64,000 nt of DNA from Dehalococcoidia bacterium (GTDB lineage: Bacteria; Chloroflexota; Dehalococcoidia; GIF9; AB-539-J10), in NCBI GenBank assembly GCA_003562475.1, contig PWUU01000048.1, positions 1 through 64,000 on the forward strand, read 5' to 3'. A program made the translations under genes and the position numbers. Of the stretch, positions 5,906 through 12,901 are shown one piece after another (the first letter of the stretch is position 1; each line of letters begins with the position of its first letter). Under the pieces are notes generated by a model, which was not told where the DNA came from, ran no database searches, and was given only the letters and a program-made list of their open reading frames with translations.

Positions 5906-6400
5906 ATGAGCAAGAAGTCCCGATTGAAGCAGGTAGAGGCACCACCTGCTGAGTCCCCACCTGAAGAGCTCACACCTGAAGAGCCAACGCCCGAGATTCC
6001 ACAGGAACCTGAAGCTCCACCTGCTGAACTCACACCTGAAGAGCAGGTCGAGACACCTGAGAGCCCACAGGAGCCTGAAGCTCCACCTGCTGAGCCAACA
6101 CCTGAAGAAGCACCTGAATACACCCAGGTGACTATCGCAGACATCTGGTCCATCCTCGGCACCGGATTGAGCTACCAGGTCAGAAGGCAGATCATCGAGC
6201 TGCTGGTCTCGCAGGTGAAGCTCACCACAATAGGTGAAGGTAGCCGCAGAACGATGGACGCCGAAGTGACGTTCGCAATTGACCCGGACGCAGTATGTCT
6301 TAGCTACACGGACACGCTTGCGGCTACGCCTACGTCTATCCGGCCACCAACCTGCACTACCCGCACGGCTATGCCATCGCCATCACCTTCCCGTACGTGA
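5906..6400 (+). CDS. Pro/Glu-repeat ORF joined to a recombinase-like tail, probably chimeric
   Basis: Translation should start well, because AGGAGG lies seven bases before the ATG. Residues 10-75 are tandem Pro/Glu-rich repeats around PEAPPAEPTPEE. Residues 80-125 (RRQIIELLVSQVKLTTIGEG, then AEVTF) resemble the segment near the C-terminus of large serine recombinases, which reads I-x-E-L-V-x-x-I and ends in a strand. After about base 6290 the frame becomes low-complexity Pro/Thr/Ser, because it overlaps an alcohol dehydrogenase remnant in another frame. I regard the first 125 residues as a degraded gene and the end as artefact. Confidence 0.4.
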   Translation: MSKKSRLKQVEAPPAESPPEELTPEEPTPEIPQEPEAPPAELTPEEQVETPESPQEPEAPPAEPTPEEAPEYTQVTIADIWSILGTGLSYQVRRQIIELLVSQVKLTTIGEGSRRTMDAEVTFAIDPDAVCLSYTDTLAATPTSIRPPTCTTRTAMPSPSPSRT

Positions 6401-6728: not shown

Positions 6729-6767
6729 AGAGCCACGGCCCGGACGGTCAGGCCGGGCCGCGGCTCT
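6729..6767. terminator. Bidirectional terminator hairpin
   Basis: A long GC-rich stem, AGAGCCACGGCCCGG pairing with CCGGGCCGCGGCTCT, is followed on the plus strand by TGTTGTCCTT. It lies between the convergent alcohol dehydrogenase remnant and the 3' end of the mazG-like gene, whose last codons it overlaps. Confidence 0.65.
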
Positions 6768-7170
6768 TGTTGTCCTTCGACTGCCCACGCAGCTCTGTGT
6801 ACTTGCGGTAGTTTCCCTTGACGAGGGCGGCGGGGTATTTCATGCGGTTCTTCGTCAGTTTGCGGCTGACCGTCTCCGCCACATCCAGGCCGGCCACCGA
6901 GGCGAGGTTCAGGCAGAGGAGGATGATATCTGCCAGTTCCTCGGCCAGTCGACAGCGTTTCTCATCGTCCTTCAGGAGCGAGGATATCTCATGTTCCCTG
7001 ACCCATTCGAACAGCTCCAGCAGTTCTCCCGCTTCGACATTTATCGCGATGGCGACATCTTTCGCGTTGTGATACTTCCCCCAGTCGCGTTCGTCGATGA
7101 ACTCCTGCACCAGGCGCTTGAGGTCGCCCGTGGTAGTGGTATCGTCCGACAGTGGTTGAATATCCGCCAT
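6748..7170 (-). CDS. MazG-like nucleotide pyrophosphohydrolase
   Basis: The 140-residue product fits the single-domain all-alpha NTP pyrophosphatases that hydrolyse non-canonical or excess (d)NTPs to NMP. The metal-binding acidic motif is visible as EAGELLELFEW followed by AEELADIILLCLNL, giving E-x-x-E and E-x-x-D pairs. The ATG at 7170 is chosen because GGGAGG lies seven bases upstream and because the longer ORF-track start would run into dnaE2. It is the last gene of the minus-strand SOS operon, 83 bases after dnaE2, which suggests dNTP pool cleaning during error-prone synthesis. That link is an inference from position. Confidence 0.85.
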   Translation of the reverse strand: MADIQPLSDDTTTTGDLKRLVQEFIDERDWGKYHNAKDVAIAINVEAGELLELFEWVREHEISSLLKDDEKRCRLAEELADIILLCLNLASVAGLDVAETVSRKLTKNRMKYPAALVKGNYRKYTELRGQSKDNKSRGPA

Positions 7171-7253
7171 CTGGAAACCTCCCTTCTCCGGAGTGGCACT
7201 CGCCGCGATAAGGGCCACGGTGTCCTTCACACTAGAACGAATCACTGGCGCTG

Positions 7254-10200
7254 TCAATGGGCGCGGGATGAAGGGCGGCGGCGTGGCCCGGTGCGTGCGG
7301 GCACTGGCCAATCACTGCCTGGACGCAGCGGGTGAATCGTGTGCGCCCGCACATTCAGCGTGCCGTCCCGCTTCTGCAGGATACCTTCCACCAGCAGCAA
7401 CGGGTTGAAGATGCACACCTGCCGGTACCGCTCATACACATCGGGCCGGATGACCACGTTGATCGTGCCATCCTCGTCCTCCATGGTAATGAAGGCAAAA
7501 CCCTTCGCAGTCGGAGGGCGCTGCTTCATTATCACGTAGCCTGCGATCTTCACCGATGCACCATCGCGCAGCCTGGAGAGGCCTGAACTTCTCACTAACC
7601 CATCGCCCGGTAGTTCCGCCCTGAGCACCTCCACCGGATGGTGGGTAATCGACATTTCCTGTACGGCGTAGTCGCACCGCATCTCCTCAAGCGAGCTCAT
7701 CACAGGGAGCGACACGGTGTCGCTGGACGACTGCAACGGCAGCTCCCCGGGGTGCCGCTTCTCCACTATGCCGAGTTGCCACAGCATCTCCCTGCGCATC
7801 CGCCCGCAGAAGTCGAAAGCTCCCGCGAGGATAAGGTTCTCCATCGCGCTGCCCGAAAGGCGGGTGCGGAAGGAAAAGTCCTCGAGCGACAGGTATACTC
7901 CTTGCGCCCGCTCCTTAAGAATGCGCGCAATCATCCGCTCTCCCATCCCTTTGACGTACCGGAACCCCAGGCGAATGCACCCTGCTTCAATGCCACACAC
8001 GGCCTCGCTCAGGTTCGCGTCGACCGGCAATATCTGAACACCGTGCCGTTGCGCGTCGTGGAGCACCACCTCCGGACGGTAGAAACCCATCGGCTGGTTG
8101 TTGAGCAGCGCACAGTAGAACTCGACAGGGTAGTGGTATTTCAGCCACGCGGACTGGTAGCAGATGAGGGCAAAGCCAGCCGCATGGCTCTTGCAGAACC
8201 CGTACTGGGCGAAGCCCTCCAGCGAGGCGAATACCCTCGCCGCACTCGCGGCATCAACGCCACCGGCGTGGGCACCCTGCATGAAGCGCTCCCGCATGTG
8301 CTCGATAGCCTCCACAGAGCGTTTGCGGCTCATGGCCCGCCGCAACTGATCCGCCTCGCCCGCAGAGAAACCGGCAAGCACAACGGCAGCCTGGATAACC
8401 TGTTCCTGAAACAGGATGACGCCAAGCGTCTCGCCGAGTACCGGTTCCAGCCTGGGATGGAGATACGTCACTTCCTCCAGCCCATTCCGCCTTCTTATGT
8501 AAGGATGCACCATGTTGCCCTGGATAGGGCCAGGACGAACAATGGAGACCTCAACTGTCAGGTCGTCAATCGACCGTGGCCGCGTGCGCGGAAGCGTCTG
8601 CATCTGGGCCCGGCTCTCTACCTGGAAGACACCAATGGTGTCGCAACGACAGATCATATCGTACACGGCGGGATCTTCCTGCGGCAGCGCCTCAAGATCA
8701 AGCGCCACACTGTGCTCCCGTTCCACGAGCACCCGTGCCTCTTCCAGCAGGGAGAGCATCCTCAGGCCAAGCAGGTCGAGCTTTATCAGTCCGGCATCGG
8801 CCACGCTGTCCTTGTCCCACTGGCAGACCACCCGGCCCGGCATGGCAGCACGCTCCAGCGGCACGATCTCGCTCAGGGGACATGAGGAGATGAGGATGCC
8901 GCCGTTGTGGATGGAAAGGTGCCGCGGGTGATCCTCGAGCTGCCGGCAGATGGAGAAGTACTCGTGGAACGTAACCCTGCCGAAGTACGGGGCGAACTCC
9001 TCTATGCCGGAGAATTCCTTCCTCATATCGCGCGAGCCATACCCGGACCACGATACCGACCTCGCCAGGCGGTCGATTACATGAACCGGGATGCCAAGCA
9101 CCTTGCCGACCTCGCGAAGCGCGTTGCGCGACTGGAACGTGATGTACGTGCAGACCATCGCCGTATGCTCCTGCCCGTACTTCTCGTACACGTACCGGAT
9201 GAGCTGTTCACGGTGGGCGGTGGACACATCGATGTCGATGTCCGGTATGGTTGACATCTCCTCGTTCAGGAAACGACCGAGGAAAAGCCGGTTCCTGATA
9301 GGGTCGACTTTCGTAATACCAAGCACGTAGGCGACGATGGAGTTCGCCGCGGAGCCACGTCCCTGTGCCGGGATGCCATGCCGCTCGGCGTACTCCATGA
9401 TGTCCCGTACGATGAGGAAATAGCCGGAAAGCCCGAGCCTGGCGATGAGGTCCAGTTCGTGCGCAATCTTCGATGCCACCTCTTCCGTCAACTCGCCATA
9501 ACGCTCACACGCCCTCGCATGGCATACCTGAGAGAGATAGCTCTCTGCCGTCTCTCCTTCAGGCAGCGCAAACTCTGGAAAGCGGTAGCCGGAGAACTCA
9601 AGCGTCACGTTACAGCGATCCGCCAGCTCGGCGGTCGCACGCACCGCCCCGGGGTACTCGCGGAACAGCGACTCCATCTCCTCGTGCGACTTCAGGTAGA
9701 ACTCGGCGTTCAGCTTCAACTCGGTGCAGTCGTCCAGCGTACTGCGGGTGCGGATGCAGGTCAGCACATCATGAAGCCGGTGTCCCTCCTTCCCCGCGTA
9801 GTGCACATTGTTGGTCGCCACATAGCCCACGCGGCACTCCTGTGCTACTGCTGCAAGCTCCGCACAGAGAACAGTGTCCTCCGCATACATCGTGTGCTGC
9901 AGCTCGACGAAGAACCTGTCCCTGCCAAAGATCTCGATGTAGCGGCCCGCGGCAGCGTACGCCTCGCGGGAACGTGAACCGCGCAGGAGACGGGCCAACT
10001 CGCCTTCCCTGCAGCCCGAGAGACAGATGAGTCCGCTGGCGTGGCTCGCCAGCATATCCCACGTCAGGACGGGACTTCCCTTCGCACCGGCGAGTTGCGC
10101 CGCCGTGATGACGCGACACAGGTTCGAGTATCCTGTCGCATCCATCGCCAGCAGCGTGACGTGGTAGTCGTCATCGAGGATGAGCTCAGCACCCACGATC

Positions 10201-10385
10201 GGCTTGACTCCCTCGCGCTCACACGCACGGACAAAACGCACCGCGCCATACAGGCCATCGTGATCGGTGAGCGCGAGCGCCGGCATGTCCAGCTCGGCCG
10301 CACGGCGCGCCAGCCCCTCGGGTAGAGAGGCGCCATCGAGCAACGAGAACGCTGAATGACAATGCAGCTCTACGTATCTTTCCAT
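7254..10385 (-). CDS. dnaE2: Error-prone DNA polymerase III alpha subunit, DnaE2/ImuC type
   Basis: The 1043-residue protein starts MERYVELHCHSAFSLLDGAS, the PHP-domain start typical of DnaE2. The palm carries PDIDID (near residue 400), giving the catalytic aspartates of C-family polymerases. The C-terminal OB-fold region follows a helix-hairpin-helix part. Length is normal for DnaE2 and shorter than replicative DnaE1. The start at 10385 is the conserved Met; the ORF-track start adds 34 non-homologous residues. It lies 31 bases after the DUF6504 gene in a lexA-led operon, so it is expected to be DNA-damage inducible and to do translesion synthesis with ImuB. Confidence 0.95.
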   Translation of the reverse strand: MERYVELHCHSAFSLLDGASLPEGLARRAAELDMPALALTDHDGLYGAVRFVRACEREGVKPIVGAELILDDDYHVTLLAMDATGYSNLCRVITAAQLAGAKGSPVLTWDMLASHASGLICLSGCREGELARLLRGSRSREAYAAAGRYIEIFGRDRFFVELQHTMYAEDTVLCAELAAVAQECRVGYVATNNVHYAGKEGHRLHDVLTCIRTRSTLDDCTELKLNAEFYLKSHEEMESLFREYPGAVRATAELADRCNVTLEFSGYRFPEFALPEGETAESYLSQVCHARACERYGELTEEVASKIAHELDLIARLGLSGYFLIVRDIMEYAERHGIPAQGRGSAANSIVAYVLGITKVDPIRNRLFLGRFLNEEMSTIPDIDIDVSTAHREQLIRYVYEKYGQEHTAMVCTYITFQSRNALREVGKVLGIPVHVIDRLARSVSWSGYGSRDMRKEFSGIEEFAPYFGRVTFHEYFSICRQLEDHPRHLSIHNGGILISSCPLSEIVPLERAAMPGRVVCQWDKDSVADAGLIKLDLLGLRMLSLLEEARVLVEREHSVALDLEALPQEDPAVYDMICRCDTIGVFQVESRAQMQTLPRTRPRSIDDLTVEVSIVRPGPIQGNMVHPYIRRRNGLEEVTYLHPRLEPVLGETLGVILFQEQVIQAAVVLAGFSAGEADQLRRAMSRKRSVEAIEHMRERFMQGAHAGGVDAASAARVFASLEGFAQYGFCKSHAAGFALICYQSAWLKYHYPVEFYCALLNNQPMGFYRPEVVLHDAQRHGVQILPVDANLSEAVCGIEAGCIRLGFRYVKGMGERMIARILKERAQGVYLSLEDFSFRTRLSGSAMENLILAGAFDFCGRMRREMLWQLGIVEKRHPGELPLQSSSDTVSLPVMSSLEEMRCDYAVQEMSITHHPVEVLRAELPGDGLVRSSGLSRLRDGASVKIAGYVIMKQRPPTAKGFAFITMEDEDGTINVVIRPDVYERYRQVCIFNPLLLVEGILQKRDGTLNVRAHTIHPLRPGSDWPVPARTGPRRRPSSRAH

Positions 10386-10416
10386 AAGGCACTCACACGG
10401 TTCGGAGTGAACCTTG

Positions 10417-10671
10417 CTAGTCGTAGACACGTTGAAGGCACCAGCGGTCCAGTGATCTGTCCCGGAACACCTCGCAGATAACCCCACCCTCCAGGCTCAC
10501 GCGAAAATAGTCCCGCTCCACCGGGCGTTTCCACCACTCCTGTGCAATTCTCCAGCGGCACAACACGTGCTCAACCCCCCGCCACTTCCCCTCGCACAGG
10601 ACGGCAAGTGGCTCGTGGGCAGGCGACTCGTTAACCTGCACCTCAGGTGGCTGCCACACGAGCTTGTTCAT
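10417..10671 (-). CDS. DUF6504 small protein of the mutasome operon
   Basis: This 84-residue gene is missed as a separate entry in the ORF track. Its ATG overlaps the imuB stop (ATGA), and a GGAGGAGC ribosome site lies inside the end of imuB. The sequence has the W-R-x-x-x-Y/H-x-V-x-x-x-L-x-R-W-R core and ends WCLQRVYD, as in DUF6504 proteins that often lie between imuB and dnaE2 in Actinobacteria and Chloroflexi. Its function is unknown; translational coupling to imuB suggests a stoichiometric partner of the polymerase complex. Confidence 0.8.
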   Translation of the reverse strand: MNKLVWQPPEVQVNESPAHEPLAVLCEGKWRGVEHVLCRWRIAQEWWKRPVERDYFRVSLEGGVICEVFRDRSLDRWCLQRVYD

Positions 10672-11855
10672 TGCTCCTCCACCTTGCACGACACGAAGGA
10701 GAACTGCTCCTCGGACAGCCTGACTCCCCGGCGGGTCGCGACCTTCTTCATCACATTCCTGCCGTACCGCTGCTGCAGCAACGCAACCGCCTCGCCGAAC
10801 TGCGAGTTCGACCTGCACGGACCATTGAGGAAGGAAGACTGACGCCCCTCCTCGGCACAGAGTCCGGAGGCCGTCAACTGCAACTCCTCCACCGGCGCCA
10901 CGATCGCAAGATGCTCGATGAAAGACGCGATCCGGCGATCCATCACCTCCCGAGAGGCAGTCGGCTCCTTGAAATGCAGCGTCTCCTGTCTCACTGCCCC
11001 GCTTTCGAGTCGCAGCAACACAGCGATACTACGACAGCACTGCCAGCGATCGCGCAACTGACAACACAGCGACGCGAGTGTTTCGCCCACTGCCTCGATC
11101 AACTCATCCCCACGGGCAACCGGCACGTCGAAGCACCTGGTCTGCACAATCTCGCGCACACCTTCCCACCGCTCCACATCCCGGACATCGACGCCACGAA
11201 CAAGCTCGAGGAGTCTCTGTCCCTCGCTGCCGAATTGCGCTTCGAGCGTGCCCGGGGGCAGACTCAGCAGATCGCCCACGCGCGTGATGCCGAAGAGATG
11301 CAGCCTGCGCACGGTGGCGTCGGATGCCGGAAGACGCACGACGGACAGTTCGTGCAAAAACGCCTGCTCCTCTTTCCCGGCAAGTACCAGCACCCCGCGT
11401 ATGTCCGCCTCCTCTGCAGCGAGACAGGCTGCAAACCGGGATGAGGCGATGCCGCAGGACACCTGGAAGCCGGTGTGCTGCACTGCAGACATCACGTCCT
11501 CGACGAAGCGACGCTCTTCGCGCTCATACCTGAGTCCCATAAGTACGCATGCGAGCGATACGGACTCCACGAGCGGGCAAAGCTGCGCTATCTGTGAGAG
11601 CACTACGGAGCAGGCCTCAGTGTACCTCTCTTCCTGGTACGGCAAGAATACACCGGACGGACAGAGTGAGTATGCATGCCGCAGCGGCATATCCTTCACT
11701 ATCCCGTACGCGGCCGCTTCCCTAGAGACCTCTCGCACCCGACCGATCTCATGGTAGTATCCCCCGATAATGAGCGGCCTGCCACAGAGGGCGGGACTTG
11801 CACGCCGCTCCACCTGGATGGCGAAGCCGGGCAGGTACAGGCATGCGATTCTCAT
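10668..11855 (-). CDS. imuB: ImuB-like inactive Y-family polymerase adaptor
   Basis: The 395-residue protein has the Y-family layout: N-terminal palm/fingers, thumb with helix-hairpin-helix (LHLFGITRVGDLLSLP near 205) and little-finger-like C-terminus. The catalytic residues are absent. The first motif reads CLYLPGFAIQVE where active polymerases have a D-x-D-x-F-F pattern, and the second reads VESVSLACV where S-x-D-E is expected. ImuB proteins are such inactive scaffolds that bring DnaE2 to the clamp. The start has GGAG nine bases upstream and lies 21 bases after lexA. Confidence 0.9.
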   Translation of the reverse strand: MRIACLYLPGFAIQVERRASPALCGRPLIIGGYYHEIGRVREVSREAAAYGIVKDMPLRHAYSLCPSGVFLPYQEERYTEACSVVLSQIAQLCPLVESVSLACVLMGLRYEREERRFVEDVMSAVQHTGFQVSCGIASSRFAACLAAEEADIRGVLVLAGKEEQAFLHELSVVRLPASDATVRRLHLFGITRVGDLLSLPPGTLEAQFGSEGQRLLELVRGVDVRDVERWEGVREIVQTRCFDVPVARGDELIEAVGETLASLCCQLRDRWQCCRSIAVLLRLESGAVRQETLHFKEPTASREVMDRRIASFIEHLAIVAPVEELQLTASGLCAEEGRQSSFLNGPCRSNSQFGEAVALLQQRYGRNVMKKVATRRGVRLSEEQFSFVSCKVEEQ

Positions 11856-11876
11856 CTACTCATCTCCGGAGAGCAC

Positions 11877-12509
11877 TCAGCGGGTAAACTTCCGAATCAC
11901 CGCTACCACCCGTCCCTGTATCATCACGTTCCCCGGATCCACATAGAGCGGCTCCATCTGCCGGTTGGCCGGCTGCAGCCGTATGTGGCTTCCTTCCTTG
12001 TAGATACGCTTGAGCGTGACCTCATGTTCGTCCTTGAGCCACACCGCCACCATGTCGCCATCGACAGCAACCTGCGTCGCCTCCATGACGACGATATCCC
12101 CATCCATTACACACGCATCGATCATGGATCTGCCACGAACCTTGAGCGCGAACAGGTTTTCCCCATCACCCACAAGCTCCCGGCTGAGGTCGAGCATCTC
12201 CTCGGCACTCTCAGTCCAGTTGTCGGATTCGGGCACGGGAATCGGAGAGCCCGCGGCTATCGCGCCAAGCAGCGGAACCTCCCTATTGGCTTTATGTACA
12301 AGTTGAATGCTGCGGAACACACCGGGCGTTCGCCGCAGTACGCCTTCGCGCTCGAGTACGTTCAGATGGTACTGGGCCAGGTTCGGCGAGCTCAGGCCAC
12401 ACCCTTCCACAATGTCACCCACCGAGGGAGAGTACCCCTTCGCCGCTATGAACGACCGTACAAACTGCAACACCCTGTCGCGAGTTCTGTTCGCACTTCT
12501 TCCGGACAT
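11877..12509 (-). CDS. lexA: LexA repressor, SOS regulator
   Basis: The 210-residue form starting MSGRSANRTRDRV is preferred, because GGAGG lies eight bases upstream. Residues 8-70 form a winged helix (GYSPSVGDIVEGCGLSS, then LEREGVLRR). The Ala-Gly cleavage site is in GAIAAGSPIPV, the nucleophile Ser in GRSMIDACVMDGD and the Lys in VTLKRIY, so self-cleavage should be intact. It leads a five-gene operon and has a palindromic operator on its own promoter, implying autoregulation and damage induction of imuB and dnaE2. Confidence 0.95.
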   Translation of the reverse strand: MSGRSANRTRDRVLQFVRSFIAAKGYSPSVGDIVEGCGLSSPNLAQYHLNVLEREGVLRRTPGVFRSIQLVHKANREVPLLGAIAAGSPIPVPESDNWTESAEEMLDLSRELVGDGENLFALKVRGRSMIDACVMDGDIVVMEATQVAVDGDMVAVWLKDEHEVTLKRIYKEGSHIRLQPANRQMEPLYVDPGNVMIQGRVVAVIRKFTR

Positions 12510-12529
12510 GACAGTTCCTCCACCTGGAT

Positions 12530-12547
12530 ATTGTACAAATATACAAT
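12530..12547. promoter_or_regulatory. lexA: Probable LexA operator
   Basis: ATTGTACAAATATACAAT is a perfect palindrome of six-base half-sites (ATTGTA and TACAAT) separated by six bases. It overlaps the -10 box of the lexA promoter, the usual position for repression. The half-site differs from the GAAC-N4-GTTC box of Gram-positive bacteria and the CTGT-N8-ACAG box of Escherichia coli. Assignment to LexA is by position. Confidence 0.75.
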
Positions 12548-12566
12548 CACCGGGGCGCAGTGTCAA
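12538..12566 (-). promoter_or_regulatory. lexA operon sigma-70 promoter
   Basis: On the minus strand TTGACA and TATATT are separated by exactly 17 bases. The promoter points into lexA and is overlapped by the palindromic operator. Confidence 0.85.
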
Positions 12567-12616: not shown

Positions 12617-12901
12617 CTAGTTCAGATCGTCAAGCGCCCGGCTGAGGAAACGCTCAAACTTGCCTTCAGCATCTGCAATCGCCGGTATCGCAGTCGAGTA
12701 AACGAGTTTTCGGCCATCCCGCCTCGACCTCACCAGGCCACCCGTTTCGAGGATGCCGAGGTGATAGGAGACCGTCTGGCGACGCACATGCAGCGACTGT
12801 TGCAACTCCACAGAGCTCATCTCCCTGCCGCGAAGCAGCTTGAGCACGCGCAACCGCGTGTCCGCTGACAGGGCCCGAACCACACTGACAACTTCGTCCA
12901 T
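12617..12901 (-). CDS. ArsR-family winged-helix regulator
   Basis: The 94-residue protein is a compact winged helix: LSADTRLRVLKLLRGREMSS, then the recognition helix RRQTVSYHLGILETGGLV and the wing RRDGRKLVYST. No metal-binding CVC motif is present, so it may sense something other than arsenite or thiophilic metals, or be a plain repressor. It lies upstream of the lexA promoter on the same strand and is divergent from plsX. The target is not evident. Confidence 0.85.
   Translation of the reverse strand: MDEVVSVVRALSADTRLRVLKLLRGREMSSVELQQSLHVRRQTVSYHLGILETGGLVRSRRDGRKLVYSTAIPAIADAEGKFERFLSRALDDLN

Follow-up and report, generated by a model that had tools for sequence, protein, structure and literature searches.

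The 64,000-nucleotide stretch analyzed here (the window), taken from contig PWUU01000048.1 of a Dehalococcoidia bacterium, probably encodes a self-contained, damage-inducible mutagenesis operon, in which the only LexA detected in the genome would repress lexA-imuB-DUF6504-dnaE2 and nothing else. The window belongs to a draft genome of 2.46 Mb in 133 contigs that is ∼95% complete. The genes all lie on the minus strand: lexA (11877-12509; 210 amino acids), imuB (10668-11855; 395 amino acids), an open reading frame (ORF) of the DUF6504 family (10417-10671; 84 amino acids) and dnaE2, also called imuC (7254-10385; 1043 amino acids), followed by a mazG-like gene (6748-7170) whose membership in the operon is putative at most. 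The successive gaps from lexA to mazG are 21, -4, 31 and 83 bases. A preliminary description of this DNA had proposed a tightly packed, LexA-headed mutasome operon with mazG behind it, and this arrangement was borne out by gene order, strand and spacing as well as by gene calls and Pfam and NCBIfam matches. The lexA-side end it had placed at 12566 was incorrect: the -35 box begins at this position, which holds no start codon, and lexA starts with the ATG at 12509, which is preceded by AGGTGGAGGAA.

The lexA promoter and its putative operator

The lexA promoter consists of a -35 hexamer TTGACA (12561-12566, minus strand) and, 17 bases on, a -10 hexamer TATATT (12538-12543, minus strand), and scored 11/12. 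The -10 hexamer lies inside a palindrome, the putative LexA operator ATTGTATATTTGTACAAT (12530-12547, minus strand), which confirmed the earlier claim that ATTGTA-N6-TACAAT overlaps this promoter. The palindrome was kept in all five lexA-bearing relatives of the genus (6/6 with the window's own genome). TTGACA is identical in these six genomes, and a -10 hexamer lying within RTTGTATNNNNRTACAAY comes 17 or 18 bases later; the distance from the palindrome to the lexA start was steady at 28-30 bases. When the six genomes were aligned on the box, pairwise identity was 0.93 in the right arm TACAA, a part outside the -10 hexamer, compared with 0.51-0.55 in the flanks.

From its sequence, the palindrome appears better read as TTGT-N8-ACAA (12531-12546) than as ATTGTA-N6-TACAAT. 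The E. coli LexA box is CTGT-N8-ACAG (PMC8565304); the half-site spacing is equal and the inner TGT/ACA is common to both, whereas the outer C/G has become T/A in the genus. The operator had been described as unlike either GAAC or CTGT boxes. It is indeed not the GAAC box of the clade, as relatives in the order and class have GAAC-N4-GTTC, but its distance from CTGT was overstated, since the two boxes share their spacing and differ by one outer base in each half-site.

The encoded LexA matched domains PF01726 and PF00717, and TIGR00498 with 175 bits (cut-off 111). The cleavage site A86-G87 and the catalytic dyad S128/K167 were invariant in 16/16 aligned LexAs and were also aligned to solved LexAs. 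The recognition helix of the genus LexAs reads SSPNLAQYH (VQYH in one). In relatives from the same order the helix is SSTAVVQHH, and GAAC-N4-GTTC or near forms of it stand just 3' of the -10 hexamer; the change of operator and the change of helix thus co-occur. The aligned helix of E. coli LexA reads SPNAAEEH. LexA408, an E. coli variant at residues 40-42, has an altered operator specificity. The DNA contacts of E. coli LexA include Ser39, Asn41, Ala42, Glu44 and Glu45 (PMC13416735). The helix start SPN, with the Ser and Asn contacts, is common to the E. coli and genus proteins, while Glu44-Glu45 is replaced by Gln-Tyr in the genus. This replacement may be linked to the loss of the outer C in the operator, a link with which LexA408 is in keeping.

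Predicted extent of LexA control

The palindrome was nearly unique. Exact ATTGTA-N6-TACAAT occurred once in the window and once in the whole genome. For the shorter exact form TTGTA-N6-TACAA, the seven genus genomes gave counts of 1, 2, 1, 1, 1, 1 and 0, with most copies at lexA, and the reversed control pattern was seen once in all seven. In genome G001 the sole exact copy was not at lexA, where the box has one mismatch; the exact copies away from lexA (G004, G001) occupy an aminotransferase-like gene and an interval between non-SOS genes. From genome G006, lexA, imuB and the box were all missing together. A single LexA was detected in the window's genome; the family's second LexA, linked to rpsT, was not detected in the genus. 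Further copies of the palindrome near recA or other SOS genes, as envisaged in the preliminary description, were not found in a genome scan, which points to a single-operon regulon and is no argument against LexA binding. A LexA regulon of one operon would be the simplest reading, and in several organisms the imu cassette is the sole unit under LexA (PMC3323433).

It seems unlikely that degenerate boxes, missed by the consensus, place a larger SOS regulon under LexA and that the one-operon regulon is an artefact of motif definition. The motif was derived from one promoter in six genomes, and real regulons hold imperfect sites; however, one-mismatch sites of TTGTA-N6-TACAA were unenriched over the control in 7/7 genomes (24/20, 21/18, 15/18, 28/32, 26/24, 22/18 and 12/9), and 19 of the 20 such sites fetched from the window's genome were inside ORFs, the remaining one being between non-SOS genes. 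Neither TTGT-N8-ACAA nor GAAC-N4-GTTC was present in the intergenic regions of the recA cluster, where recA comes after two other genes, or in the dinB upstream region outside ORFs. An excess of ATTGTA-N6-TACAAT at two or fewer mismatches in this genome (36 versus 15 for the reversed control) was rejected as a sign of a wider regulon, because the shorter pattern was about as frequent as its control, and the sites retrieved were in coding sequence or next to non-SOS genes. A site with one mismatch, 950 bases ahead of dinB, was likewise discarded as an operator: it is within an upstream ORF and has two mismatches in relatives, and its conservation is therefore that of coding sequence. Still less probable is that the palindrome belongs to a different regulator, for instance the ArsR-type protein whose gene lies upstream of lexA (12617-12901, minus strand), with LexA binding elsewhere or not at all. 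The arsR gene is a same-strand neighbor and was near lexA in five genomes, but its own promoter, conserved in the window, G001, G003, G004 and G005, contains no palindrome, and this candidate was rejected on that ground. Moreover, the gap between arsR and lexA ranges from ∼110 to ∼780 bases while the palindrome keeps its place before lexA, and family f46, in which arsR was not seen at this place, has another palindrome at the equivalent promoter position. The arsR-type gene is probably unrelated to the operon.

The preliminary description had also proposed that the deoxynucleoside triphosphate pyrophosphatase encoded by mazG is co-induced, naming a separate promoter before mazG as a finding that would speak against this. 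Such a promoter, TTGACA-N17-TAGTGT (7229-7257, minus strand), was found; its -35 hexamer overlaps the dnaE2 stop codon, its 3' end is 58 bases from mazG and it has no LexA box. TAGTGT agrees with TATAAT at three positions only and had been overlooked by a consensus promoter scan, but the hexamers were identical in 5/5 genomes with a flank identity of ∼0.4. In favor of mazG as the last, co-induced gene of the LexA-controlled unit, the gap is short (83-91 bases), mazG is adjacent to dnaE2 in 4/5 genomes with data, and no terminator-like site was seen in the gap; read-through may occur. Against it, in G005 the promoter was retained with mazG at a distance of ∼7.5 kb from dnaE2, and the LexA-led operons of g10 (G147) and f46 (G182, G213) showed no mazG behind dnaE2. 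Co-induction of mazG is thus not supported, given its own conserved promoter without a LexA box, and we regard it as quite improbable. The product itself matched the MazG domain PF12643 (54 bits), and its closest solved relatives were dCTP pyrophosphatase 1 (E 3e-21). In G005 (L087), the segment between dnaE2 and mazG is ∼7.4 kb long and holds TRAP-transporter-like genes; the 40-base direct repeat at its flanks includes the -35 hexamer of the mazG promoter. In the window, an ORF at 5906-6400 (plus strand) opens with Pro/Glu-rich repeats (EEPTPEIPQEPEAPPAE).

Several points weigh against a single, self-contained LexA operon. A consensus search could overlook some targets of LexA whose half-site is weak, the palindrome of G001 is broken at one position, and the genus data are draft metagenome-assembled genomes (MAGs), 82-95% complete, from one uncultured genus. 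In 4/6 genus genomes (G001-G004), a gene on the opposite strand separates DUF6504 from dnaE2 (L083 9663-10250; L084 2230-2896; L085 9120-9779; L086 1388-2051). It encodes an XRE-type helix-turn-helix protein with hydrophobic C-terminal segments, and no LexA box was found before dnaE2 in these genomes. Co-transcription of dnaE2 with imuB is therefore not general in the genus. In the window and in G005, where no XRE gene intervenes, the gap between DUF6504 and dnaE2 is 31 and ∼50 bases.

Mutasome proteins and the proposed mechanism

ImuB matched Y-family polymerase models of Pfam and NCBIfam. When aligned to Pol IV, the MDAF and IDEA segments are replaced by LPGF and LACV, and the catalytic segments lacked acidic residues in six genus genomes. 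A C-terminal RecA-NT-like segment, AVALLQQRYGRNVMKKV, resembles RecA AIEQIEREFGRGSLMRL; the resemblance is suggestive only, as shuffled sequences reached an equal score in 4-15% of cases. Searches of genome contigs with ImuB returned close relatives solely from MAGs labelled Dehalococcoidia, the remaining matches being distant Bacillota polymerases, and a plasmid search for close ImuB relatives found distant DinB/ImuB only. DnaE2 is an error-prone C-family polymerase and matched subfamily model PRK05672 with 1141 bits (cut-off 939).

The DUF6504 protein of the window scored below the Pfam gathering threshold (14.9 versus 24.2 bits; E=0.032), which some homologues from the class exceed. In hhalign, a profile from 30 DUF6504 proteins and one built on five ImuB C-termini matched with a probability of 96.8% (E 2.7e-10), and PF20114 hit a Rhizobium ImuB at its C-terminus with a score exactly at the cut-off. 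On these sequence comparisons, DUF6504 is a standalone ImuB-C domain, encoded beside an inactive Y-family polymerase (PolY) and DnaE2. Its predicted structure is all-beta (predicted local distance difference test, pLDDT, 87.6). The best hit of this model in a fold search against the PDB had an E of 0.87, with no solved relative, and the proposed SH3-like fold was neither confirmed nor excluded by it.

No ImuA was found in the window's genome: the best matches to NF033429 were RecA (44 bits versus a cut-off of 150) and a weak second RecA-like ORF, and since this model was above cut-off in 0/14 controls too, a divergent ImuA might have gone undetected. The absence of imuA reported in the preliminary description thus appears to hold; its novelty does not, as imuA-less cassettes are already known (PMC6511836, PMC3765255).

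From family membership and intact residues we infer how repression, cleavage and recruitment would proceed, and with them induction and mutasome function. LexA would bind TTGT-N8-ACAA across the -10 hexamer of its own promoter and keep lexA, imuB, the ImuB-C gene (DUF6504) and dnaE2 off. Upon DNA damage, RecA filaments would trigger self-cleavage of LexA at Ala86-Gly87 and the promoter would open. The inactive polymerase ImuB and the detached ImuB-C may then recruit DnaE2 to lesions; RecA would probably take the role of ImuA, and mazG would be transcribed from its own promoter.

LexA and its putative operators across Dehalococcoidia

In the class, imuB-DUF6504 operons without a neighboring lexA carried GAAC-N4-GTTC, perfect in 18/23 and with one mismatch in 5/23 (0.3% by chance), so that LexA control of the imuB cassette appears to be the rule. 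Among 30 stand-alone lexA loci, sampled as the highest TIGR00498 scores and therefore biased to canonical members, most had a perfect GAAC-N4-GTTC, all had a helix starting with SSTSVV, and none was adjacent to imuB. The LexA of most sampled Dehalococcoidia thus resembles that of the window in that its box likewise precedes lexA and imuB-DUF6504 operons, but differs in its stand-alone gene, invariant helix start and operator.

Every lexA found to lead imuB-DUF6504-dnaE2 falls into a separate LexA clade (25/66 rows; support of 99 in the Shimodaira-Hasegawa-like approximate likelihood ratio test, SH-aLRT). In f46, lexA-imuB-DUF6504-dnaE2 operons have GGTACA-TT-TGTACC or RGTACA-TT-TGTACY over the equivalent -10 position, forming a GTACA-N2-TGTAC palindrome (L196, L198, L199, L202-L204; L195, L197, L200). 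The exact GGTACA form occurred once or twice per genome where present, the lexA promoter always being among the copies. In one genome of family f64 (G177; L138, L219), two adjacent GGTAA-N4-TTACC-like boxes precede the lexA-imuB-DUF6504 cluster, while two f1 genomes have a GAAC-N4-GTTA operator and f2 a GAAC-type operator. A GTACA-type operator is also present in G160 (f46), where lexA is alone, so that linkage to the cassette is not strictly required. In G026 and G029, lexA is directly followed by DUF6504, without imuB or dnaE2 (L088 7792-8700; L089 7212-8127), a pair that looks like a relic of the cassette. The LexA-like frames of L220 and L221 (G197, G265) have stop codons in the N-terminal region and upstream DNA that is identical in both genomes; they are possibly damaged copies.

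Cassette architecture, LexA leadership, the absence of imuA and a single-target LexA are all of known kinds. LexA-led imu cassettes have been described, for example lexA2-imuA-imuB-dnaE2 of P. putida (PMC3901139, PMC5261740, PMC3765255); lexA does lead the operon here, but this is not the novelty it had been taken for. As in the window, lexA2 heads and controls one mutasome operon, but P. putida has LexA1 for the general regulon and an imuA, whereas here one LexA was detected, no imuA was found and ImuB-C is separate. Also described are operons that combine an inactive PolY, a standalone ImuB-C and DnaE2, lack imuA and often include lexA (PMC6511836, PMC3765255). Operons of this Kyrpidia tusciae type are equal in gene content, including the lack of imuA and the frequent lexA, and have a RecA-NT-like motif in the polymerase to which the putative segment of the window's ImuB may correspond. 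The window differs from them in its Chloroflexota host, its own operator and LexA clade, and the tie of ImuB-C to Pfam DUF6504, a name absent from the literature searched. The E. coli LexA regulon comprises ∼40 genes, compared with one operon here. As far as the literature searched shows, which covered few subscription papers, new elements are the operator-helix pair in a Chloroflexota setting and the variety of operators within one LexA clade, with at least three unrelated operators in cassette-bound members while the sampled stand-alone LexAs keep GAAC-N4-GTTC.

In one quite possible history, the mutasome operon may have captured lexA, and the repressor would thereby have been released from all other parts of the SOS network. 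Once a sole target was left, operator and recognition helix could drift jointly, giving TTGT-N8-ACAA, GTACA-N2-TGTAC and GGTAA-N4-TTACC in separate Dehalococcoidia lineages; the genus of the window would stand at the point where the primary LexA is already lost and recA is not yet recaptured. LexA motif change has been proposed to start with duplication and divergence, after which the primary lexA is lost and the network recaptured (PMC8565304); the genus looks like a step between these last two events. The Pfam family DUF6504 gains a function-bearing identity as ImuB-C. Close outgroups lie on either side of the switch, and the co-evolution of operator and helix would therefore be directly testable by swapping a few residues.

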